41,074 nucleotides of DNA from an uncultured Candidatus Woesearchaeota archaeon (GTDB lineage: Archaea; Nanobdellota; Nanobdellia; Woesearchaeales; GW2011-AR9): positions 1 through 41,074 of the forward strand of contig CABZYC010000006.1 of the NCBI GenBank assembly GCA_902529885.1. The letters run 5' to 3'. The notes beneath the pieces are model-generated. The model worked only from the letters and a program-made list of their open reading frames with translations. It had not been told where the DNA came from and did no database searches. Both the position numbers and the translations under genes were made by a program. Position 1 is the stretch's first letter, and every line of letters begins with the position of its first letter. Of the stretch, positions 44 through 41,074 are shown in pieces.

Positions 44-3000
44 TTAATCCCTCAACACATCCCGTACCATTAAATACGAGATTAACAGTGCGGACACGAG
101 TAATACACTAAGTATGTGTATTATACCGTACCCAACCACATTAGCAGTAATACTACTTGAACTTATAAGTTTACCGTCTTGCACAGCACGCCATTGTACA
201 ACTAGGTCCGTACCTTGAATATCTTCAGAGATAGTAAACTGTTGTACTAATAGACCCTCAGTAAACGGACCATACTGCTCAACATAACGTTGATCAGATT
301 TGAGTAATTCACATATGTTAAACCGACAATAAGTTGACGGATTTTCAATGTTAGCAACAAGTTCTAAATATGCAGGTTCGCTACCGGGATGGTACGCATA
401 AAGTTCTATTGTTTGATCATCAAGATACTCAATATGAGCCTTATACCCAATATTATCTTGTAACGTTAAATTAGTACGATTTATTATAATAGAACTATTA
501 TCTTCAACTAACAAGATCGATACATCTTCCTCTTTAAAGAACCCCGCATTATACAACAAATCAACTTGATTATTCTCCCCGATAGTATACGTTATTTCCC
601 CTTCACCCCCATCACCCTCTGGTAGGACAGGATTAGGTATGAATGGGTAAGACACAACTTGTTCTTCGAACGTAGCAGCACCGTCAAGAAAACTATTTGT
701 ATTTAATCCAACAATGAACCATGCAGGCAATATGTGGGAAGACACCACTTGTAATGGCCTATTATTAAATTCTAATAACTTTAATTGCGCAGGAGATAAG
801 ATTCTAGAAGATGTAACTGGGACCACTTCTAAATGTTGCCCTTCTTCGATCCTGAACGGTAAGGTGAAAATGGTTGCACCTCGACCACCAGAAGATGAAG
901 AAAGAACGGTACCACCAGAAGATTCTTCAGCCGCCCCAGTAGATTCTTCTTCTTCACCATAACTTTCACCATAACTTTCTTCAACCGAAGTAGGTAGAGG
1001 AGAAAGTAGTGCAGGTGCAGAAACTTTTGGTGCTTTAGAACCACCACTACTACTACTACCACCGCCACCACTACTACTACCACTACTGCCAGAAGAAGAA
1101 GGTGGACAAGACAAGATGGTACTATTTTTCACAATAAGATTGTTTATACCGTCTGTAATATTAACTGTAATATTTAGTAAATCATTATGAGAAAAGTTTC
1201 CGTGGTACAACGAAGAGTTGAATATGGTAGCAACAGACCCGTTAACACTGTTATTATACACGTACACATTGTTAACGTACCACAGCATATAGCCAGTAGC
1301 ATTGCTTAATTCATAATCTGTGTGCGTGAAATTTGCAGTAGCGTTAACATTACACGCTGCAGACAAGTTAACGTAGTCTACAACTAAAGGCTTATCAGTT
1401 ATAATTACTGAAAAGTTAAACTTGGTAGTATTACTATCACTATCATTAACCCAGACAGTAACGTTCCAAAAATCACTGTGTGTTAAGTTCCCCGAACTAA
1501 TGTTAAGACTACCATTAAAAGCTTGTAACACATTATTCTTGTACCATAGCGTATTATTTGTTGTTGGTTCTAAATCATCATCAAAAGCGTTAATTGTTAC
1601 AATTAAATTGTCTACTGGACTTGAACCGTTCAAGCTACTGTTCATTACAGGAACAGTATTATCTACCAAACGATAAATAACATGATTCACACTGTCTAGA
1701 CCATTAGCAGTCGCTGACCAATTAACTTTTAGATTGTCACCCTTATCATAAAACGTACTGTTTAATATGCTTGACACAGTTATATTGTTGATAACCCCAT
1801 TTATAGTTTGGTTGTACACACTTAGCCATGCACCAACACTTTCATCTTGTACATGCCACCTAAATGTTATATCACCTGTGTGACTTTCATTATCTAAATA
1901 AATACCGCTAGCTGTAGCGTTTGACGAATTCTTTATTGACATTCCGTTTGAATCATTACGTAGAAATGGGTTCAGAAAATAAGGTATTGTGTCTAAACCA
2001 ACATTCAAACTTCTTTGTATGGATGGGCCACTAGCACTACCATCAGTAGCTGACACAGAACAGTTCCATAAATGTCCCGTATCAATCGATCTGTTCAGAT
2101 ACAATGTAGACCAAGATTGTGTATAATTAAACACGTTATCCTTATAATAATTATACTCATAATTTATTCCGTCACCATCAAGGTCAACCGCAGTCTGGTT
2201 CACTGAACAGTTTAAAATACCTGCATTATATGTCAAATTAATGTCAAGACTTCCAGGAGGAGAATTTAGGATGGTCACATTATTAGTTGTTACATTAGTA
2301 GAATTCTCAAGACTGTCACTAAGCCATAACGTAACGTTCCAAACATCACCTTTTGTTGTGTTTCCACTACCAAGAACGGTCACATTATCAAGCGACGGTT
2401 TATACACATCATTATGATACCATCTTGTATACAAAGTGACAGTATCATTATCAGCATCTGCACTGTCAATTACCACACTTAAAGTTTCGTTAGTAACATT
2501 ATTACCTTGTGCCACTAAAAAATAAGAGTTTAATACAGGAATACTATTATTTACAGGTCTCCCTGATGACAGTTGTGCAATTAAACCGTTCGAAGTTGCT
2601 ACAGCGGTTACACGAATTATGTCGCCACGATCATAAAATAAAGAGCTTAAATTTGAATAAACAAAAGAATTATTTGTAACGTTGTAATAAGTCTGATTAT
2701 AAACGTCAACGTACGGCCCAACATTTTCGTCGCGAATAGCCCATGTCATAGTAATAGTAGCATTATCACCATCAGTGTCAATGTAACGTACTGAAGCGTT
2801 AGCACGCGTTATGTTACCTATGAAATTACCGCCACTCATGTTTAATATGTTCAAGTCAAACAGTGAGGGAGAAGCGTCACTATACTCAACTAATGCGTAT
2901 GCAGACGAATTGTGGGTAAACGCGATTGTGTTGTCAACAATATTCAAAGTGGAAGTAATAATAGATTCATCATTAGTATCAACCATCTTCAATTTATTTT

Positions 3001-6000
3001 CATCAAAAACCATGCCAACCAATGCTTTACTATAATTAATAGTAATATTAGTCATATTACCACTAACATTAACAATATACCTATCTATTGAAGTATAATG
3101 GGGGTTCACCAAATTGTAAGTTCCAGGATACAATAATAAAGAGTCAGTGCATGATGCACAATCATACACAAAGGTGTAATCCGTATCATTAGACCTCGTA
3201 TCAATGAAATGGCCAATGTTATTTGAATGGTCCAGAGGTGTAAAGTTTAGTAACATGGAAGTGTTCATTGTCACGTTCGTTGAAGAAAATATGGAATCCT
3301 CAGCCCTCACTCCAACCTGGGCAGTACAACTTATGTTGGTCAAGGATACGTTACTATACCCTGTATCAACACAAAAATCATTCTCAAACAAAGAGTTTTC
3401 TATAGAAAAATTACTATTATTACTGTGTACACCAAACATACTTGTATTAATTGAGGTTAAATCGTTAATCAGCATGTTATCTGAATCAGAAACTATTATT
3501 TCTCCACCTAATTTAGTAACATTTTTAATACTAGAATTAACAGTGTTATGAGTGTCAATCACACGATAATAATCATTAATGTTACAATTCTTAATGGTAA
3601 TATTTTCTAGCCTTGTACCAAATGGGGCAATAGCTGCAATCGCTGTGTCGCCACTAACACCATCATCAACCGTGAAATTGTAACCATCACAGTTTAATTC
3701 AACGTTCGATGATATTATGTAAACACAAGCTTCATCACCAAAACCGTAATCGTATTTTGTACCACTTAAGTCATTAGTAAGGTTATAAACGCCACTCTGA
3801 GTAATTTGAACACACTGGCTTATACCACCAGATATAGAAATCGTATTAGTTGCTACAGGAGAACCAACAGTTACATAATCAGTTGCACGTACAATACCAC
3901 CCCATACGTCACCAGTTTGTGTTTCTGAAGAAGTAATTTTTGAATAATTACCGTTTGCATAAGCTTGAATCTGTTCTGGTGAAATTGTTCCATTTACAAC
4001 AGTAATATTATCTATTGCACCATTAGGATTGAACTTGAAATTATTTGGATTATGATTGTTCAAAGGACCATGACTATCAGTAAAATTATGTACGCCATTT
4101 ACATAATATTTTATATGTGTACTATTCACTAAAATGCAATTATGATACCAAACACCAACAGATAATGGATCATCATTCTTAAAAATCCTAGTACTATCTA
4201 AAAAAACATCTATCCCTCTTGTTGCATGATGTTCTAAGTTAAGTTTGTGTGTATTGGTCGAACTGTTCACACGTAGAATAACTTGTGTAAGAGTATTAAG
4301 CTTTAAATTAAAACAGAGACTATAATCTGTTTGTTGATTCACTGTAGACTGAAAATTGACTGGATCCCAATACCCTGTTTCAAACCAACCATTCCCAATA
4401 CCATAATTCCATTCTGCAGAGCTTGTACCATGAAATTCGTTATCACTATAATCTGTGACAGTTGTAACATTAGTGTCCAAAGGTGCATACAATAGATAGT
4501 ATGGTAAACTGTTACGTGTCCAACCAATATGACTCACATTAGGTGAATCACCTTCAGGATCAGTAATAGTGCCTGGGATAAAAGTCAAATTTTCATAAGT
4601 AGTGTTACTAACATGCGTTGCAACAATCTCAGGAGTACTTGTAGGCCCACTATTAGCTACAATACTACTGTTTTGAGAATAAGTATTATCAGTACCGTCC
4701 GTCACATTATATGTTACGTTCACTAAATCGCCACGACTAAAGTTGCCAACAGTCAACGTTCTAACAACACTATCATTATGATCCACGCTTACAATCTCAC
4801 TTTGAACCATAACACTATTAACGTACCATGTTACATTTACACTACCGTTTTGAAGGTTAGCGTCTGAATAGGTTGCATTAAATAAAGCATTAGTCAAAGT
4901 TGCAGGGTGGACCCAATAATTTACAGTCCATACCGGAGGCGTATTACTAAACATGTAAGTTGTGTTAGGCGTCCTTGCACCATAAGCAGTACCATCAAAA
5001 GGTTTGGCACTACAATTGTATACGTCAGAAAGATCGAATGTAACATTCAAATTTGTAAAGTTCGTGTTTGTTAACACAGTACTATTAAACACATTATTTT
5101 TGTACCATGAAAAATTGTAGGATAAAGGATCTAAAGTATCAATATCTGTAGCCTGAGTAACCCCACAATTTAAGGTGCTACCATTATAATTAATAATGGG
5201 GTTACCAGTTATCACAGAGAGAGAATTTTGTACAGACCACTGAAAATTGTAGACAGTCTCATTATAACTATCATTAAGCCTAACAGTTATTTTTACCGTG
5301 TCACCCTTAGTAAAGTTTGGCGGAGATAATTGCGTGTTCAAAACAGTACCGTTAGCAATATTCGTTAATTGAGTACTATAAACCAAGGCTGTGTTAACGT
5401 ACCAACTAAAATTGACAAGACCATCATGAAGTTCAACATCTTCATACGTGATGTTCACGTTAACAATTGTATCATTGTAAAGTGTTAACGTTTTTTGAAA
5501 GTTTTCTGCTAACGGAGGCGTATTATTCAACATTATAGATGAAGTGTTTAACGGACCGTAAACGATAGAGTCATATGAACGAACTGAACAAACCCAGTTC
5601 GCACCATATTCGTACGGTACAATTGTACTATTAAATAATGCAGACTGTATACGACTTGATTGGTTCACACCATCTTTAATGAATGTAACATTGTATGATA
5701 CAACGTCACCGTCAGGATCAATTACAGAGTCCCAACTACAGTTTAAATGACTATAATTATAAAATAATTGTAAATTGCTAACTGCTGGAGGCGGAGCATT
5801 CGTATACTCAAACAAAGTTATTTGATCACTAGCGAGGCTTGTGTCAATAGTATTACTACCAGTATTCAAAGTGAAAGCTTGATTGTGGTAAGACCCATTA
5901 TATTTTTTTAGAATAAAAGTAGCTTCGTCAGCACCACCCAAATTTACATCGCTCCAGAAAAAAGTTAAACTGTCAACGTTACCATTAGTTATGTTAACTG

Positions 6001-8809
6001 AACGGTTAATTTCTGAAGATTTGAACGGAACATGACTCGTCAAACTCGGTACAGTCTGCACTTTGTCAATGTTTAAAAATTGGCCAACAGTACTAACATG
6101 TTTTATAATGTGTAATTGTACATCATTAAGTTTAACATTAGTCAGATTTAAAGTATCCCCCATATCAAAAACTGCTTCAATAAGTGACCCTGCACTATTA
6201 ACATGAGTATCATTAAGGGTTACATTAAATCCAGACGTAGAATTTATTGAACCGTTCAATGTGCTTGACTGCACGTAAAGATTTAGATCGGTTGATTCAA
6301 TTGAATGGTCTGTAACATTGATAATGGTATTTTTCACGTATAAACCGTCACCAGCAAGAATACCTAATGCGTACCCATGCATTGAACAATCACCCACAGT
6401 TGAATTTACAGAATCATCTTTAATTGCAATCCCAGTTGTGTGAGTTAAACTATTACCATCACAGTTTATCAGGGTATCATCATGGAATAACCCCACACAA
6501 TAATTCTTACCAGATTGTACACCGTTCAAATTATTTTGTAGTGTGTAAGTACCAGGGCTGTCAGTATCAAAACATTCTGTAACATCACCTGTTACACTTT
6601 GATGAGGACTAAGAGATTCAGTACTATAACTATAATCGTCACTTGCACGAATGTATGATCTAACAGTGTCACCTACACCCAATTCTGTAGCGTGTAACAC
6701 CGTGTAATTTCCTTGTGACCACAACCTAATCTGGTCAGGTGTAACAACGTGGTCTAATAACATAAAATCATCAAGTATACCATCACCAGTATAACTTGAA
6801 AACCCAGGCTTCATACCAAGGTACACATTGTTTGATGACGTGAACGATCCAGCTATAGTAGAATGGTTGAATTCACCGTTAACATAGATCATATAATTAT
6901 TGTCAGCGTCATTGTAGGTATAACATAAATGGACTGGATTACCTGAGGACGGGTTAATAATATCATACGTTTGCCCAGGTAAAAAGAATCTAATCTTCGA
7001 ACTGGCCTGCCAATGAAACATTCGTATATCCGACGCACCATCAAGATAATAAAATTCTTGACTATTTCCACCTGACAGATTTTGATAAAATAAGCATGCA
7101 GTGTGACTCCCTGATATAGGCGTCGTCAAGTTTAACCCTGCGTTTGAATCATTAATTTGTAAAACACCATCATTATCAGTGCCGCCACGATGGATCCAAG
7201 ACACCTTGTCACCCCATAATGCACTTGTTAAAGTACTAGATGAGATATCAATACTATAATTTGATTCAGAATGATAGTCATCAAAAGGAAGATAAATGTC
7301 GTAATAATCCTCCCATGACCCACCAGTATTAATCTGCCAGCTCGAGTATAACCTGGTCTGGTCACCCTCAGGGTCAGTAGTAGTAGCGCTGACTGAGACA
7401 TTTTCAAACGTGTTGTTTAGCGTAGAGTTACTACTAAATATGTTTATGTTAGAAATGTTTGGACTAAGATTAACTTGCCACCCACTAAACCCAGGTACAT
7501 CAATTGTAGACTTAGCATCTTGTCTTACTACCTCAGTATAAGGTGATAACATAGCGTCTTTCAAAAAAATACCTAATCTACCAAAATTATAAAATTCTAA
7601 CCGCGCAGCCGTCTTCAAATTTGAAAAAATAGCATTATTAGAAACACTTATATCACCCTCAGTTATTGAAACAATTGTATCGTCAACTTGACCTGCAACA
7701 TTAAGGTTGGTTGTTGGAAGTGTATATTTCCCAAATTCATTACTGAATACAACAGTGTTAGTAGTAATAGCACTACCATCAGTATAACTACCAACCCTAC
7801 TATTCATAAAATAATTGTTAGTACTTGAAGCATCGATTTTTATGAAAGATTTTAACCAAGAATTGTCAACAGTGGCACCAGAAGAATCAGCAAAAAAAAT
7901 GCTTCTATCAGTAATATTGAGAAATGTAGACATATTACTTTCATTCAAAAAATAAGCATTATTTGTTATATGAGTATTATCAGATGACCCATTTATTAGT
8001 CTAATCTTTTGACTTTGACCAATACTAAATGCGTAAGGAAAACCAATTAGATCATAATTATATATCTTCAATTGATCAGAATTTGTTATTTTAATTGGAC
8101 GTCTTACATGATTAGGAGGAGATTCACCAATAGCATGAGGTTCTATGGTTATATCATTCCAGAATGTATAAGGAGAAGATATCACTTTACTTGGTTGATT
8201 TGAAAAAATACTTACATTCTCAATCAAAGTATTATTACTGAGATTAATAAAAATTGGAACATTAAGTGATGCGTTATTATATTCAGATGAAGTGAACCGT
8301 AATACACAATTTTTAAGTTTAATATTATTCTGTTGAGCAATAATCACCAAACGACCAACTTTATTTGATTGAATAGTGTGTCCTTTACAATCAAAATATT
8401 TTATACCGTTTGAACTTGGGGAACTAACATCCCCTTGGAGTCTCAAAACATCACCGTGTGCAGGACAAACCACATCTGAATTAATATAAGTTCCTTCTTT
8501 AAGAATATCAACAACATTATTGCAATGACCCAATACACAAGAAGCCGATGGACCACAACTTACTAAAGATTTAACAATCCCACCTTCTTCAATAGCTTCA
8601 ATTTCAATACTATCTTCAACAATTATTTCTATTGGTTCAACTATAACTTCTGGAATTATAACATCGTTAGGTGCAATTGCAGTTTCGTTTATGGAGAACG
8701 TTTCAGTGAAAATTGCTGCACCTGTGATGCTTGATGGGAACAAAAAGAGAGTAGTAATAACAGTAGTAATTAGTAGAACTATCGTTAACCACTTCAAACG
8801 TCCATCCAT
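44..8809 (-). CDS. Giant secreted/cell-surface protein: signal peptide, beta-helix-like segments, two LamG/ConA-like domains, Ig/FN3-like repeats, Ser/Gly linker, C-terminal TM anchor
   Basis: 2922-aa ORF; hydrophobic N-terminus (KWLTIVLLITTVITTLFLF), very many NxS/T sequons, repeated WYVN/WYKNNVFN modules, SSGSSGSSSGGGG linker, C-terminal hydrophobic helix. ORF track start is TTG at 8812; ATG at 8809 preferred; TATA-like TTTATAAA upstream. Confidence 0.9.
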   Translation of the reverse strand: MDGRLKWLTIVLLITTVITTLFLFPSSITGAAIFTETFSINETAIAPNDVIIPEVIVEPIEIIVEDSIEIEAIEEGGIVKSLVSCGPSASCVLGHCNNVVDILKEGTYINSDVVCPAHGDVLRLQGDVSSPSSNGIKYFDCKGHTIQSNKVGRLVIIAQQNNIKLKNCVLRFTSSEYNNASLNVPIFINLSNNTLIENVSIFSNQPSKVISSPYTFWNDITIEPHAIGESPPNHVRRPIKITNSDQLKIYNYDLIGFPYAFSIGQSQKIRLINGSSDNTHITNNAYFLNESNMSTFLNITDRSIFFADSSGATVDNSWLKSFIKIDASSTNNYFMNSRVGSYTDGSAITTNTVVFSNEFGKYTLPTTNLNVAGQVDDTIVSITEGDISVSNNAIFSNLKTAARLEFYNFGRLGIFLKDAMLSPYTEVVRQDAKSTIDVPGFSGWQVNLSPNISNINIFSSNSTLNNTFENVSVSATTTDPEGDQTRLYSSWQINTGGSWEDYYDIYLPFDDYHSESNYSIDISSSTLTSALWGDKVSWIHRGGTDNDGVLQINDSNAGLNLTTPISGSHTACLFYQNLSGGNSQEFYYLDGASDIRMFHWQASSKIRFFLPGQTYDIINPSSGNPVHLCYTYNDADNNYMIYVNGEFNHSTIAGSFTSSNNVYLGMKPGFSSYTGDGILDDFMLLDHVVTPDQIRLWSQGNYTVLHATELGVGDTVRSYIRASDDYSYSTESLSPHQSVTGDVTECFDTDSPGTYTLQNNLNGVQSGKNYCVGLFHDDTLINCDGNSLTHTTGIAIKDDSVNSTVGDCSMHGYALGILAGDGLYVKNTIINVTDHSIESTDLNLYVQSSTLNGSINSTSGFNVTLNDTHVNSAGSLIEAVFDMGDTLNLTNVKLNDVQLHIIKHVSTVGQFLNIDKVQTVPSLTSHVPFKSSEINRSVNITNGNVDSLTFFWSDVNLGGADEATFILKKYNGSYHNQAFTLNTGSNTIDTSLASDQITLFEYTNAPPPAVSNLQLFYNYSHLNCSWDSVIDPDGDVVSYNVTFIKDGVNQSSRIQSALFNSTIVPYEYGANWVCSVRSYDSIVYGPLNTSSIMLNNTPPLAENFQKTLTLYNDTIVNVNITYEDVELHDGLVNFSWYVNTALVYSTQLTNIANGTVLNTQLSPPNFTKGDTVKITVRLNDSYNETVYNFQWSVQNSLSVITGNPIINYNGSTLNCGVTQATDIDTLDPLSYNFSWYKNNVFNSTVLTNTNFTNLNVTFDLSDVYNCSAKPFDGTAYGARTPNTTYMFSNTPPVWTVNYWVHPATLTNALFNATYSDANLQNGSVNVTWYVNSVMVQSEIVSVDHNDSVVRTLTVGNFSRGDLVNVTYNVTDGTDNTYSQNSSIVANSGPTSTPEIVATHVSNTTYENLTFIPGTITDPEGDSPNVSHIGWTRNSLPYYLLYAPLDTNVTTVTDYSDNEFHGTSSAEWNYGIGNGWFETGYWDPVNFQSTVNQQTDYSLCFNLKLNTLTQVILRVNSSTNTHKLNLEHHATRGIDVFLDSTRIFKNDDPLSVGVWYHNCILVNSTHIKYYVNGVHNFTDSHGPLNNHNPNNFKFNPNGAIDNITVVNGTISPEQIQAYANGNYSKITSSETQTGDVWGGIVRATDYVTVGSPVATNTISISGGISQCVQITQSGVYNLTNDLSGTKYDYGFGDEACVYIISSNVELNCDGYNFTVDDGVSGDTAIAAIAPFGTRLENITIKNCNINDYYRVIDTHNTVNSSIKNVTKLGGEIIVSDSDNMLINDLTSINTSMFGVHSNNSNFSIENSLFENDFCVDTGYSNVSLTNISCTAQVGVRAEDSIFSSTNVTMNTSMLLNFTPLDHSNNIGHFIDTRSNDTDYTFVYDCASCTDSLLLYPGTYNLVNPHYTSIDRYIVNVSGNMTNITINYSKALVGMVFDENKLKMVDTNDESIITSTLNIVDNTIAFTHNSSAYALVEYSDASPSLFDLNILNMSGGNFIGNITRANASVRYIDTDGDNATITMTWAIRDENVGPYVDVYNQTYYNVTNNSFVYSNLSSLFYDRGDIIRVTAVATSNGLIAQLSSGRPVNNSIPVLNSYFLVAQGNNVTNETLSVVIDSADADNDTVTLYTRWYHNDVYKPSLDNVTVLGSGNTTKGDVWNVTLWLSDSLENSTNVTTNNVTILNSPPGSLDINLTYNAGILNCSVNQTAVDLDGDGINYEYNYYKDNVFNYTQSWSTLYLNRSIDTGHLWNCSVSATDGSASGPSIQRSLNVGLDTIPYFLNPFLRNDSNGMSIKNSSNATASGIYLDNESHTGDITFRWHVQDESVGAWLSVYNQTINGVINNITVSSILNSTFYDKGDNLKVNWSATANGLDSVNHVIYRLVDNTVPVMNSSLNGSSPVDNLIVTINAFDDDLEPTTNNTLWYKNNVLQAFNGSLNISSGNLTHSDFWNVTVWVNDSDSNTTKFNFSVIITDKPLVVDYVNLSAACNVNATANFTHTDYELSNATGYMLWYVNNVYVYNNSVNGSVATIFNSSLYHGNFSHNDLLNITVNITDGINNLIVKNSTILSCPPSSSGSSGSSSGGGGSSSSGGSKAPKVSAPALLSPLPTSVEESYGESYGEEEESTGAAEESSGGTVLSSSSGGRGATIFTLPFRIEEGQHLEVVPVTSSRILSPAQLKLLEFNNRPLQVVSSHILPAWFIVGLNTNSFLDGAATFEEQVVSYPFIPNPVLPEGDGGEGEITYTIGENNQVDLLYNAGFFKEEDVSILLVEDNSSIIINRTNLTLQDNIGYKAHIEYLDDQTIELYAYHPGSEPAYLELVANIENPSTYCRFNICELLKSDQRYVEQYGPFTEGLLVQQFTISEDIQGTDLVVQWRAVQDGKLISSSSITANVVGYGIIHILSVLLVSALLISYLMVRDVLRD
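1041..1090. repeat. Trinucleotide (ACC/ACT)n-like tract encoding the Ser/Gly linker
   Basis: ccaccactactactactaccaccgccaccactactactaccactactgcc. Confidence 0.85.
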
Positions 8810-8871
8810 CAAGAGTATATACGTAAAAATGGTTTATAAAGATTTACAAAAATAAGGAAAAAGATTGCGCT

Positions 8872-12541: not shown

Positions 12542-13789
12542 TTACGCTTGTTTACGACGCATACGCTGCACAGCGTACTGAGAAGGCGTACCGATTGTCC
12601 GGCATAAACTGTCTGGTTTACAAACGTCCAAAGCAAGATAATAACCCTCATTTTTACATTTTGGAGTACGTTTACTTGTATTAAAAGCACGTAATTGACC
12701 CTGAACATAAGCGTCGCGTAAAGGAGTGGGATTTTTAGCGTTCCATTCGTTCACTAAAGATTCAATCATTTCACTTGACCACCCCACTTCTGCTAAAAAA
12801 GTTGTCACTGCAAAAAGAGCACGTTTTTTTCCATCGTTAATACCTTGTAAAATCGATTTAATGCAAGGAGGAAAACAGTCCTCTGGTACAGGATCTTTCA
12901 CTTCAAAACTACGTTTAAACTTTTTTACTTCACGAGGCTTTTTAGCCACATAATCAATAGAACTACGTAATAATTCAGTAGCGTCACCGTCACCTGGTTC
13001 TAAATAGCTGGCAAGAGGCTCAATAAACTTTTCAGGGTGCGCCATTGAACGTTCAAATTTTAAGACCATATCACAAGGGATCGGTAAACTAATAAGCCCA
13101 CTTTTTTCATGTAAACTGTAAGGCATACGGTACAAATGACGGGAAGCTAACAAGATTGTGTCAATATCAATAAAATCTTCAACTTTAACCCGGCCACCCT
13201 CAATAAGAATGTCCCCAACTATCTCGCGTATACCTGCAAGACCGTGCTGTTTTATTAATTGGTCACTTAGCGCTTTATACACATGGTCACTAACAAAAGA
13301 AGCAATAGCACGAGGATACTCTGGAAACATGTCACTGGTTAATGCCTCACCAACAACACGCGGGAAACTTGTCCATGGAACAGCTACATGAAAACCTTTA
13401 TTCCCAGAAAATTTTACAAAAACATGTTTTACTTTATGAAACCGTAAAAATTCTATTATTAAATGAGTACACAGTTTACTAATCTCAAAATGGTTACAGT
13501 CAACATCCAATATTAAATCCCAACCAGAACGTAGTTTGTCAAGCTGTGCACGACCCCGAGTATTAGAAAGCATGAAAGGGTCATGCCAATGTTCTTCACT
13601 CACATGAAAACTGGTCACATTTTGTTTTGCAAACTCTAAAACGTCGGATGGATAACGTAGCATGTCCGGACGCTTTCCAAAAGCTTCACCGTACCGAACA
13701 GATACCTCACGATCTTTAGAAAATGATAATAAAAGGTCTGCAACATAAGAATTTTTGTAATACCGTAAACATGCACCTTTATCTAACAT
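12542..13789 (-). CDS. priS: DNA primase small (catalytic) subunit
   Basis: LILDVDCNHFE (DxD) and VKFSGNKGFHVAVPW (SGxxGxH). Confidence 0.93.
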   Translation of the reverse strand: MLDKGACLRYYKNSYVADLLLSFSKDREVSVRYGEAFGKRPDMLRYPSDVLEFAKQNVTSFHVSEEHWHDPFMLSNTRGRAQLDKLRSGWDLILDVDCNHFEISKLCTHLIIEFLRFHKVKHVFVKFSGNKGFHVAVPWTSFPRVVGEALTSDMFPEYPRAIASFVSDHVYKALSDQLIKQHGLAGIREIVGDILIEGGRVKVEDFIDIDTILLASRHLYRMPYSLHEKSGLISLPIPCDMVLKFERSMAHPEKFIEPLASYLEPGDGDATELLRSSIDYVAKKPREVKKFKRSFEVKDPVPEDCFPPCIKSILQGINDGKKRALFAVTTFLAEVGWSSEMIESLVNEWNAKNPTPLRDAYVQGQLRAFNTSKRTPKCKNEGYYLALDVCKPDSLCRTIGTPSQYAVQRMRRKQA

Positions 13790-37378: not shown

Positions 37379-38287
37379 GTGCCACGCCGTAAAAATGAGA
37401 CTGACAAATTAGATTACATCTTGTTATCGCCAGGATCAAAGTTTAACAAAAAAGTGCGTGAAATTGGAAAGTTTCTACATCTGCACATGGACAATTACGA
37501 TAGTAATGTTGGGCGAAGTATTGAAGGTGCACTATTCGTTCTAAACTTTTTAGCAATCATACTTTTTATGGTTAATACACTGCAGCTTGAACCACACATT
37601 ATGAAGTGGTTAAAAATTGCAGAAATAACGGTTGTATCAATTTTCATACTTGAATACGCTGCACGGTACTATGTTGCTAAACAAAAGTTGAAGTATGTTA
37701 CTAGTGGATACGCAATCATAGACTTATTATCGATTTTACCAGTAATTATACTCATTATAGACTTTTCTTTCCTTCGTATTTTTCGATGGTTACGATTTTT
37801 CAGGATGATACGTATCCTTCGTTTTCAACGGATGTTCAAACAACAAAATACACTGTTTGGTAAACTTACTGAGACAGAAATTGTTGTTACACGCATTATT
37901 TTAACCGTGTTCACCATCATTTTTGTGAGTGCAGGATTAATATGGTCAGTAGAAACAAAGTTTGGTAACCAAGATATGGGCACCATTTTTGACGCAATGT
38001 ATTTTGCAATTGTAACCTTGTCAACTGTTGGTTATGGTGACATTACACCTTTAACTCCATTAGGTAAAGGTATCACTACAGTCATGATACTTTCAGGTGT
38101 AGCCTTAATACCCTATCAGTTAACTCAATTAGCAAAAATATTGATTAAATCTGGTTACATTGAATCTAATGAACTACAACAGTTTGGTGGTGCGAAAGGT
38201 GCGTTTAGAATTGATATGGAAGAAATTGAATGTCCACACTGTAAAAAACCGGTTAAAATGAAATCATCTAAACGTAAGCGTGTCTAA
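37379..38287 (+). CDS. Voltage-gated K+ channel
   Basis: S4 RIFRWLRFFRMIRILRFQR; pore TLSTVGYGDITPLT; C-terminal CPHC; GTG start. Confidence 0.93.
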   Translation: MPRRKNETDKLDYILLSPGSKFNKKVREIGKFLHLHMDNYDSNVGRSIEGALFVLNFLAIILFMVNTLQLEPHIMKWLKIAEITVVSIFILEYAARYYVAKQKLKYVTSGYAIIDLLSILPVIILIIDFSFLRIFRWLRFFRMIRILRFQRMFKQQNTLFGKLTETEIVVTRIILTVFTIIFVSAGLIWSVETKFGNQDMGTIFDAMYFAIVTLSTVGYGDITPLTPLGKGITTVMILSGVALIPYQLTQLAKILIKSGYIESNELQQFGGAKGAFRIDMEEIECPHCKKPVKMKSSKRKRV

Positions 38288-38440
38288 CTCGATTTCTAAT
38301 ATAAAAGGCATTAGCATACCAATACTTACTAAAAAAAGTGCGTAATTCCAAGGAAATAATATATCGCTTACAGATAATACAAAACTTAAAATTAAGAAGA
38401 TCTTTCCTAGAATAAACAGCATGAATTCTACCAAACGCAT
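38264..38440 (-). CDS. 58-aa putative two-TM membrane protein (below ORF-track cutoff)
   Basis: MRLVEFMLFILGKIFLILSFVLSVSDILFPWNYALFLVSIGMLMPFILEIELDTLTFR*, translated codon by codon. Confidence 0.5.
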   Translation of the reverse strand: MRLVEFMLFILGKIFLILSFVLSVSDILFPWNYALFLVSIGMLMPFILEIELDTLTFR

Positions 38441-38469
38441 AAAACAATGAATAATGTTCTAGTATATAA

Positions 38470-39414
38470 CTATTTCAGTAACCGTTCAGCCACCATAAAA
38501 TATCGAGAGCGTAATATATCGTCCATATCCTGTAAATGAGTGTATAACCGTTTATTACATTGTGTCTTATGAACAAAAGTCCAAACTAATGCGTCCCATT
38601 CCATACTGCCACGTAAAATGGGAGATTTTTGCAATTCAATTAATTCGTTCACTTTATGACGTGTACGGTCAGGGGAGTGGTCTACACAATGCGATTTTAA
38701 AAACATATAAATTTCGTCGGGGTGTGTTTGCGTAATTGCAAAATAAGTTGCAAGCTCACGAAGGTATTGTGTTGCACCATAACATTCAAACTCTAACAAA
38801 ATTTCAGGGATCATCCCGCGGTTAACATAACGTTTTGTATGATTATACGGATTTTGAATTAAAACATTATAAGGTACTGTTTCAGGTTCTAACAATAAAC
38901 GATATTTGTCAGGGACACATGATAATAAAGTGTCTAACTCTTTATTAGTAATAATGTTATGTTCAAGTAATAACCAATATACTGCTTGAAGATCAATTGG
39001 TGTTATACCTCTCTTTAAATCTTCTACCACATTTTCAAGATAGATCTTAACATGATAGTAACTGTGTGGTATACGATATTTTTCTATTTTGCCAACACCA
39101 GAATAATTGTTCAACACCCACTTTTTAGCTAAAGGAAGCACATCGTTCAAACTTGAAACTTTAACAATGCCTCTCCCATTTGAATAATTATGACGTTCAT
39201 AACTTGAAGATTGTTTTATTGGAACTATTTTACTATGATACTTATTTTCTAATAACCAATTGTGAAATAGTTTCATTGATGCACGATGAAAAAGTAGCTT
39301 GAACAAATGTTGACCATTCTGATAAAAAGTGGGGGAACTAACCAAAAAGTGTGAATCACGATTATTATCAATTATGCTTGGGTGAAGTTGGTCAGGATAC
39401 AAAATTTTTTGCAT
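38470..39414 (-). CDS. Divergent deoxyribodipyrimidine photolyase-related (DPRP-like) protein
   Basis: N-term ILYPDQLHPSI...FKLLFHRASMKLFHNWLLENKYHS; middle QYLRELATYFAITQTHPDEIYMFLKS; C-term MEWDALVWTFVHKTQCNKRL. Confidence 0.55.
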   Translation of the reverse strand: MQKILYPDQLHPSIIDNNRDSHFLVSSPTFYQNGQHLFKLLFHRASMKLFHNWLLENKYHSKIVPIKQSSSYERHNYSNGRGIVKVSSLNDVLPLAKKWVLNNYSGVGKIEKYRIPHSYYHVKIYLENVVEDLKRGITPIDLQAVYWLLLEHNIITNKELDTLLSCVPDKYRLLLEPETVPYNVLIQNPYNHTKRYVNRGMIPEILLEFECYGATQYLRELATYFAITQTHPDEIYMFLKSHCVDHSPDRTRHKVNELIELQKSPILRGSMEWDALVWTFVHKTQCNKRLYTHLQDMDDILRSRYFMVAERLLK

Positions 39415-39447
39415 TGTTATATAACCAGGTCATAGATTATTAAAAAT

Positions 39448-40116
39448 TTACCATGCTTTACTTGCTAAGCTAACACATATTGTATAAAAACCAATAAACA
39501 AAATGTAATGCCAGGTGTAACGAAGTAATTGAAAATTTTTATGATAAAAAATATAAAACAAAATTAAGGGGTACGTCCAAGAAATAATAGTGTAAGGGTT
39601 ACCTAATAAACTAATTAAAACAGTTGAAATAAGACCACTATAAAAAGAATATTGCATACTCTTCATACTCCCTAGTTTTACTGCCAGTGTTTCTTTATTA
39701 TCAAGACTGTCTGAAAAGATGTTAGGAATACCATTTAATAAGGAATAACTACTCAAGAAAAGTATGTACGATATAACTGGCAACCATAATGTGTAACCAT
39801 ACAACATTAATCCAATAAAGTGCATTGTTAATCCTAACCAACAAATAAGAATTAGTTGACTAACCCATTTCTTATTTATTAAAAAAGTGCTTAATAATAA
39901 AATGGTTAAAAATGACCAATAATTATCAGACCAAGGATATAATAGGCTTAATAAGCTTAAACTGTAAGATAAAACGTAATGTTTGTGCCTTACTAAAATA
40001 AAAAGTAAAGTTACTAAAAAAATGTAAGCTAAAGGTTGTATAGAGAAAATGTCGCGCCACGTTGCAGCGTGAACAAACAAAACACTTAACAAGCTTATAA
40101 GATGAATATACCACAT
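39448..40116 (-). CDS. Polytopic membrane protein, UbiA prenyltransferase-like, N-terminally short
   Basis: LNGIPNIFSDSLDNKETLAVKLGS resembles the UbiA second Asp motif followed by TLxVxLG. Confidence 0.5.
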   Translation of the reverse strand: MWYIHLISLLSVLFVHAATWRDIFSIQPLAYIFLVTLLFILVRHKHYVLSYSLSLLSLLYPWSDNYWSFLTILLLSTFLINKKWVSQLILICWLGLTMHFIGLMLYGYTLWLPVISYILFLSSYSLLNGIPNIFSDSLDNKETLAVKLGSMKSMQYSFYSGLISTVLISLLGNPYTIISWTYPLILFYIFYHKNFQLLRYTWHYILFIGFYTICVSLASKAW

Positions 40117-40152
40117 AAAACACTAAAAATCATACTGGTTATTAAACACGTC

Positions 40153-40941
40153 TTAACTAAACAATATATGTTTCACAAAATAATAGCCGTGCACAACCAA
40201 GTTTGGTTTAAATGATGTACGGTAAACCCTGCTTGGACGATCTAATAAACGGTTCAACCGGTATTGGTGAATACGTACTATTTGAGAAAAAAAAATACGT
40301 TGGCGCCAAGGCATGGAAGGTAAACGACGCTGAAAATTCTCACAATATTGATTATACCTTTTATCTTGTAACATCATAAATTGTAAAAGTTGCACTGGAC
40401 GATTTTTAGTGTAAGAAGATTCTAACGTACGAAGATTACACCGTTTAAAATCTTGTTCTGGAAAATATACAATCTTACGTTCAATACTATCCTCAACATG
40501 CAAAGTGTACCTACACAATTGTACACCCCTCGCCACACGGCATATGGAGGAATAAAATTTTGGATGTACACGTAATATCCTGCAAACTACTTTTGCTGGA
40601 CCATCCATCTTATCAGATAAATAATTGTCAAAATCGTCAAACGTTTTATTTGAAGGGTCACGCAACTCTTTACGTGCAGCACGAAACATGTTTTCGAACC
40701 ACTCTCTTGGAACACCATACTTCTGGATTAAATAAACCATGAATTCTATATCTTCATCATTAGATATTTTGCCGTTACAAGCTTTCAACCATTCACCATA
40801 TAATAAATCAAATTGTTCTGTTCGTACAGGTACACGTTCAATATATTTTCTGAGCCTGGTCAAAATACGTGCAAAACGGTGAAGATCTTTATAACGGTCA
40901 ATACCAAATAAAGTTAGACTATATTGTACAAGCTCATACAT
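40153..40941 (-). CDS. Phytoene/squalene synthase family-like protein
   Basis: TFDDFDNYLSDKMDGPAKVVCRIL...CRVARGVQLCRYTLHVEDSIERKIVYFPEQDF. Confidence 0.65.
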   Translation of the reverse strand: MYELVQYSLTLFGIDRYKDLHRFARILTRLRKYIERVPVRTEQFDLLYGEWLKACNGKISNDEDIEFMVYLIQKYGVPREWFENMFRAARKELRDPSNKTFDDFDNYLSDKMDGPAKVVCRILRVHPKFYSSICRVARGVQLCRYTLHVEDSIERKIVYFPEQDFKRCNLRTLESSYTKNRPVQLLQFMMLQDKRYNQYCENFQRRLPSMPWRQRIFFSQIVRIHQYRLNRLLDRPSRVYRTSFKPNLVVHGYYFVKHILFS

Positions 40942-40973
40942 GAATTACCATATTTTGGTTAATAATAAAAAGG

Positions 40974-41074
40974 CTATGCTACGTTTTCATCAATATGAGC
41001 AGCCATAATAAAATCATTACGTGTAACTCCACCAGCATCATGCGTGCTAAACTTTAAAATTACATAACCAGAAC
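40974..41074 (-). CDS. Partial CDS: pterin-4a-carbinolamine dehydratase C-terminus
   Basis: ...SGYVILKFSTHDAGGVTRNDFIMAAHIDENVA*; THDAGGxTxxDFxxAxxID pattern. Confidence 0.75.
   Translation of the reverse strand, partial: SGYVILKFSTHDAGGVTRNDFIMAAHIDENVA

Follow-up and report, generated by a model that had tools for sequence, protein, structure and literature searches.

The stretch of DNA analysed here (the window, 41,074 nt) is the entire contig C6 of an archaeal genome of 0.68 Mb, which is 95% complete and distributed over 23 contigs. The organism is a reduced DPANN archaeon related to the Woesearchaeota, probably with a host-dependent lifestyle. At the end of the contig, between 41074 and 38264 on the minus strand, the truncated tail of a PCD gene is followed by four complete ORFs (Table 1). 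The initial annotation had described five co-directional ORFs about 29-36 nt apart, and this arrangement is indeed found: counted from PCD, the intergenic gaps are about 32, 36, 33 and 29 nt. Codon use of the long ORFs is coding-like and favours the annotated frame, and the chance of a stop-free frame at 37% GC is 9e-9 for P0001, 1.5e-7 for P0002 and 2e-10 for P0003.

Table 1. Genes of the minus-strand set at the end of contig C6, with the evidence for each assignment.
Feature	Position	Strand	Evidence
PCD, C-terminal ~32 codons, truncated by contig end	40974..41074	-	Pfam PF01329 1.2e-7
P0001, phytoene-synthase (CrtB)-like pseudoenzyme, 262 aa	40153..40941	-	PF00494 2.1e-9; CrtB profile 9.7e-23
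P0002, UbiA / lycopene-elongase-like membrane protein, 222 aa	39448..40116	-	PRK12875 1.7e-4; UbiA profile 1.1e-4
P0003, DPRP (photolyase-related)-like protein, 314 aa	38470..39414	-	PF04244 E 0.038, below cut-off; hhalign
Putative membrane protein, 58 aa	38264..38440	-	ORF only

Mis-binning of the contig was ruled out by its tetranucleotide profile, which correlates at r 0.88-0.91 with two further contigs from this bin and at r 0.36 at most with relatives. A viral origin was also discarded, P0001 and P0003 having no relatives in viral contigs and no PHROGs family. A defence system was searched for with PADLOC and gave no match, and no plasmid relatives of P0003 were found. Elsewhere in the window, a 2922-aa ORF (44-8812, minus strand) contains LamG_3 (laminin-G-like) domains and encodes a giant probable surface protein in this genome of 0.68 Mb, and one protein (12542-13789, minus strand) matches both the small and the large archaeal primase subunits, being probably a fused primase.

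The contig stops exactly at 41074, inside the PCD gene, which leaves no sequence into which the locus could be extended, and the remnant covers only positions 64-90 of the 91 of the Pterin_4a profile; no second piece of PCD was detectable elsewhere in the genome. PCD may still be active. At the other end, the 58-aa ORF matches no family in Pfam, NCBIfam, PHROGs or PADLOC searches, and it is considered only putatively coding because the chance of an open frame this long is 0.016. It overlaps by 24 nt the gene at 37379-38287 (plus strand), which encodes an ion channel of the six-TM type (Ion_trans/Ion_trans_2) and is convergent with the operon.

The families that the initial annotation had read from motifs (PCD, trans-isoprenyl synthase of the phytoene-synthase type, UbiA and DPRP) were recovered in all four cases, the first two by Pfam, UbiA with moderate evidence and DPRP weakly. 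In P0001, the SQS_PSY domain scores 37.9 bits against a cut-off of 26, and the CrtB profile of Table 1 was made from 77 CrtBs. By tree path, the closest relatives of P0001 are methanogen CrtBs from CrtI-CrtB-UbiA operons, with at most 21% identity, and its own branch in the tree amounts to about 10 changes per column. There are 41 columns conserved in at least 99% of the 77 CrtBs, and P0001 keeps only about seven of them. The first Asp motif, DDxxD, has become RKxxE (RKYIE), with D39, D40 and D43 replaced by R31, K32 and E35; the second, DxxxD, reads HVEDS (D-D to H-S), and the invariant N, R, D, D and R around it correspond to R144, L147, H148, S152 and I157. Every Mg-binding Asp is therefore gone, and neither of the two Asp-rich motifs that characterise phytoene synthases is present. 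The conserved residues still found are Q141, Y107, Y159, P236 and P246. Near some of the motifs the alignment stands at 15-20% identity, which counts against the reading preferred below. Searching the PDB by sequence with P0001 and P0003 gave no useful match.

The matches of P0002 are more modest: the score against NCBIfam PRK12875 is far below the model cut-off, the second match comes from a UbiA profile of our own, and the Pfam search gave no UbiA domain above cut-off. The protein carries an IPNIxxD...TLAVKLG motif and its gene follows the CrtB-like gene, which is the position of UbiA in archaeal operons. Altogether, there is moderate evidence that P0002 is a UbiA of the archaeal lycopene-elongase kind. 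Both cytosolic catalytic loops, NDxxDxxxD and YSxPPxRFK, are deleted, the second UbiA Asp motif reads NIFSD, and the D of the last motif is N132. When AF2 was run with 18 UbiAs, the resulting model was confident chiefly in part of the C-terminal half, at residues 111-190 (block means 66-94); compared with the PDB by Foldseek, it comes closest to the UbiA homologue 4od4, with low significance. The genome encodes another UbiA, a full prenyltransferase of a different kind on contig C4 (L057:7795-8655), which is present even though no polyprenyl synthase is detectable in the genome.

P0003 reaches 12.3 bits with the Pfam DPRP family, the cut-off being 22.1. However, hhalign against the DPRP alignment gives 33.8, above the maximum of 160 size-matched decoys (25.9) and of 150 shuffles (23.0), and three weak DPRP matches run collinear from the N to the C terminus. 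P0003 thus appears to be a DPRP (photolyase-related) homologue by a match that is weak but above all decoys. Its N-terminal DPRP region and the C-terminal HPDEIY...VD and W-D-A-L-V-W align with the FeS-BCP / DPRP photolyases (PhrB, CryB), but it has 314 aa instead of about 460-520 and lacks HHIxRLM and the FeS-cysteine region. His366 of PhrB is essential for repair (PMC4619345); the corresponding position in P0003 is Tyr, and the HHIxRLM (HHIERLM) segment reads QYLREL. Also missing are the W390 region and the segment that surrounds the Cys region, and the FAD/FeS region after the His366 position is shortened. AF2 of P0003 alone was uninformative (pLDDT 38), which counts against the preferred reading. 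A full-length DPRP is encoded elsewhere in the genome, on contig C12 (L036:11601-13478), and the copy in the operon is therefore a spare one. Upstream of the C12 gene, in the same orientation, is a flavin-reductase-like gene, and the two may form a functional pair; a full FeS-cysteine pattern considered for the C12 protein was dropped, because the cysteine spacing mismatches that of PhrB. Another DPRP, with a photolyase-like fragment, is found in a viral contig (L138:4812-6362) with a fused DHFR-thymidylate synthase nearby.

Gene order was compared in 80 CrtB loci taken from public genomes. UbiA directly follows CrtB in 16 of them, and GGPPS lies between both in three more; archaeal CrtI-CrtB-UbiA carotenoid operons have crtB-ubiA as their conserved core. 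The pair in the present locus was therefore inherited as an operon core, to which PCD and DPRP were added; neither of these was found beside crtB in any of the 80 loci (pattern and single-sequence profile). The conserved neighbourhood put forward in the initial annotation as a check was seen for crtB-ubiA. A complete operon, CrtI-CrtB-GGPPS-UbiA-CruF, each gene confirmed by Pfam, occurs in Woesearchaeota (L043/L058), the CrtB of L058 (SKIA01000051, a Woesearchaeota MAG from the same order as this organism) being a 100% match to that of L043 (genome G125). CrtI-CrtB-UbiA operons were also observed in methanogens of the Methanobacteriaceae and Methanomicrobiaceae (L119, L120, L089, L077), which suggests C50-type carotenoid genes in these organisms. 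Compared with the archaeal C50 (bacterioruberin-type) operon, CrtI-CrtB-(GGPPS)-UbiA-CruF, the present locus likewise has ubiA after crtB on a single strand, but CrtI, GGPPS and CruF are absent from it, PCD and DPRP are added, and the CrtB-like and UbiA-like proteins are devoid of catalytic motifs.

The rest of the pathway was looked for in the 95%-complete genome. Neither phytoene desaturase (PF01593, amine-oxidase-type CrtI) nor polyprenyl synthase (PF00348) was found, both searches being positive in 14 of 14 control genomes. Rhodopsin was not found either, a weaker absence because none of the controls was above cut-off in that search. Among 371 genomes sampled from the phylum no orthologue of P0001, P0002 or P0003 was found, which counts against the preferred reading; a contig scan of genomes with P0003 also gave no orthologue.

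The initial annotation had proposed a light-, prenyl- or pterin-linked pathway with enzymes so divergent that their chemistry might differ. An association of light response, photolyase and pterin genes, of the sort on which it drew, is documented in Pseudomonas, where the LitR light loci combine photolyase/CryB with pterin/folate genes (PMC9758184). Those loci, however, hold intact enzymes and light-responsive regulators, and no such regulator was identified here. By analogy, a light/pterin link is plausible as the ancestry of the operon, and it may now be lost. As a working pathway the proposal is not sustained: the catalytic residues are gone, and searches of the genome did not recover the rest of the pathway.

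The reading we prefer, with moderate confidence, is that an ancestral carotenoid/photoprotection operon now encodes co-transcribed pseudoenzymes, whose retention most likely serves a role other than catalysis. We infer that the three proteins no longer carry out the chemistry of their ancestors and that such a role accounts for their being kept as a set. The main rival is that the locus is a decaying relic, whose function disappeared with the isoprenoid/carotenoid pathway and which drifts to loss under relaxed selection, the intact frames being transient. Missing pathway partners, the extreme branch of P0001, the deletions in the UbiA-like and DPRP-like proteins and the lack of orthologues in a reduced 0.68 Mb genome are all as decay would have them, and we regard it as possible although rather unlikely. 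Neutral drift to saturating divergence should bring stops and frameshifts, whereas three consecutive long frames, for which a random model gives chances of 1e-7 to 1e-10 apiece, are still open and their codon use is normal. The persistence of these coding-biased frames speaks for retention in a non-catalytic role rather than for decay, without proving it.

It is distinctly unlikely that the proteins are working, highly divergent enzymes of a novel prenyl-, pterin- or light-linked pathway fed with host-supplied prenyl diphosphates. The families and the operon layout would fit, P0001 keeps the five conserved residues named above, PCD retains its C-terminal motif, and scavenging of host lipids is known in DPANN (PMC11035636); nevertheless, all the Asp residues binding Mg and diphosphate and the adjacent Arg/Asn are replaced in P0001, the whole NDxxDxxxD loop is missing from P0002 and P0003 has lost the repair His. 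The assignments themselves could be mistaken, P0002 and P0003 being unrelated orphans and only the PCD and CrtB-like genes true family members. Neither protein has a Pfam family above cut-off, the P0003 model is uninformative and the Foldseek match of P0002 is weak, but P0003 beats every decoy and shuffle against DPRP with its three weak matches in order, and P0002 has both the motif and the place of a UbiA in archaeal operons; we consider this very improbable.

Regarding how the retained set might have originated and act, a photolyase-related gene and a PCD gene would have been added to the core of an archaeal C50-carotenoid operon (crtB-ubiA). Candidates for the non-catalytic role include the binding of lipids, pigments or proteins. 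Most likely, the CrtB-like and UbiA-like proteins would work at the membrane, where they would bind host-derived isoprenoid or carotenoid lipids or serve as an assembly scaffold like NDUFAF6, and P0003 would be a remnant co-opted to bind DNA or a partner. Likened by their description, NDUFAF6 and NDU1 of C. albicans are the nearest precedent of this kind: they too are SQS/PSY relatives without either Asp motif, and lacking DxxxD motifs they act in complex I assembly (PMC8007014). They differ from P0001 in being mitochondrial, in having no operon with UbiA/DPRP relatives and, as far as known, in having been derived separately. Two observations suggest a role in handling isoprenoids or pigments of the host: endogenous prenyl synthesis is lacking, and another DPANN symbiont takes up lipids of its own host selectively; bacterioruberins are under-represented in that symbiont, which speaks against a simple pigment uptake there (PMC11035636). 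That the whole carotenoid/photorepair set forms a multi-protein pseudoenzyme complex able to sense, bind or move host isoprenoids or pigments is an unlikely extension of this proposal.

Single pseudoenzymes with the phytoene-synthase fold were already known. What is unusual here is that active sites are lost in each of the three core enzymes that can be recognised, yet the open frames and the gene order are kept. If only decay is taking place, the locus still preserves a trace of a carotenoid/photoprotection operon being lost as the genome shrank. Otherwise it would offer a system in which to ask whether symbiotic archaea put entire pathways to new use once their chemistry is lost, and how DPANN archaea deal with lipids and pigments beyond their own synthesis.
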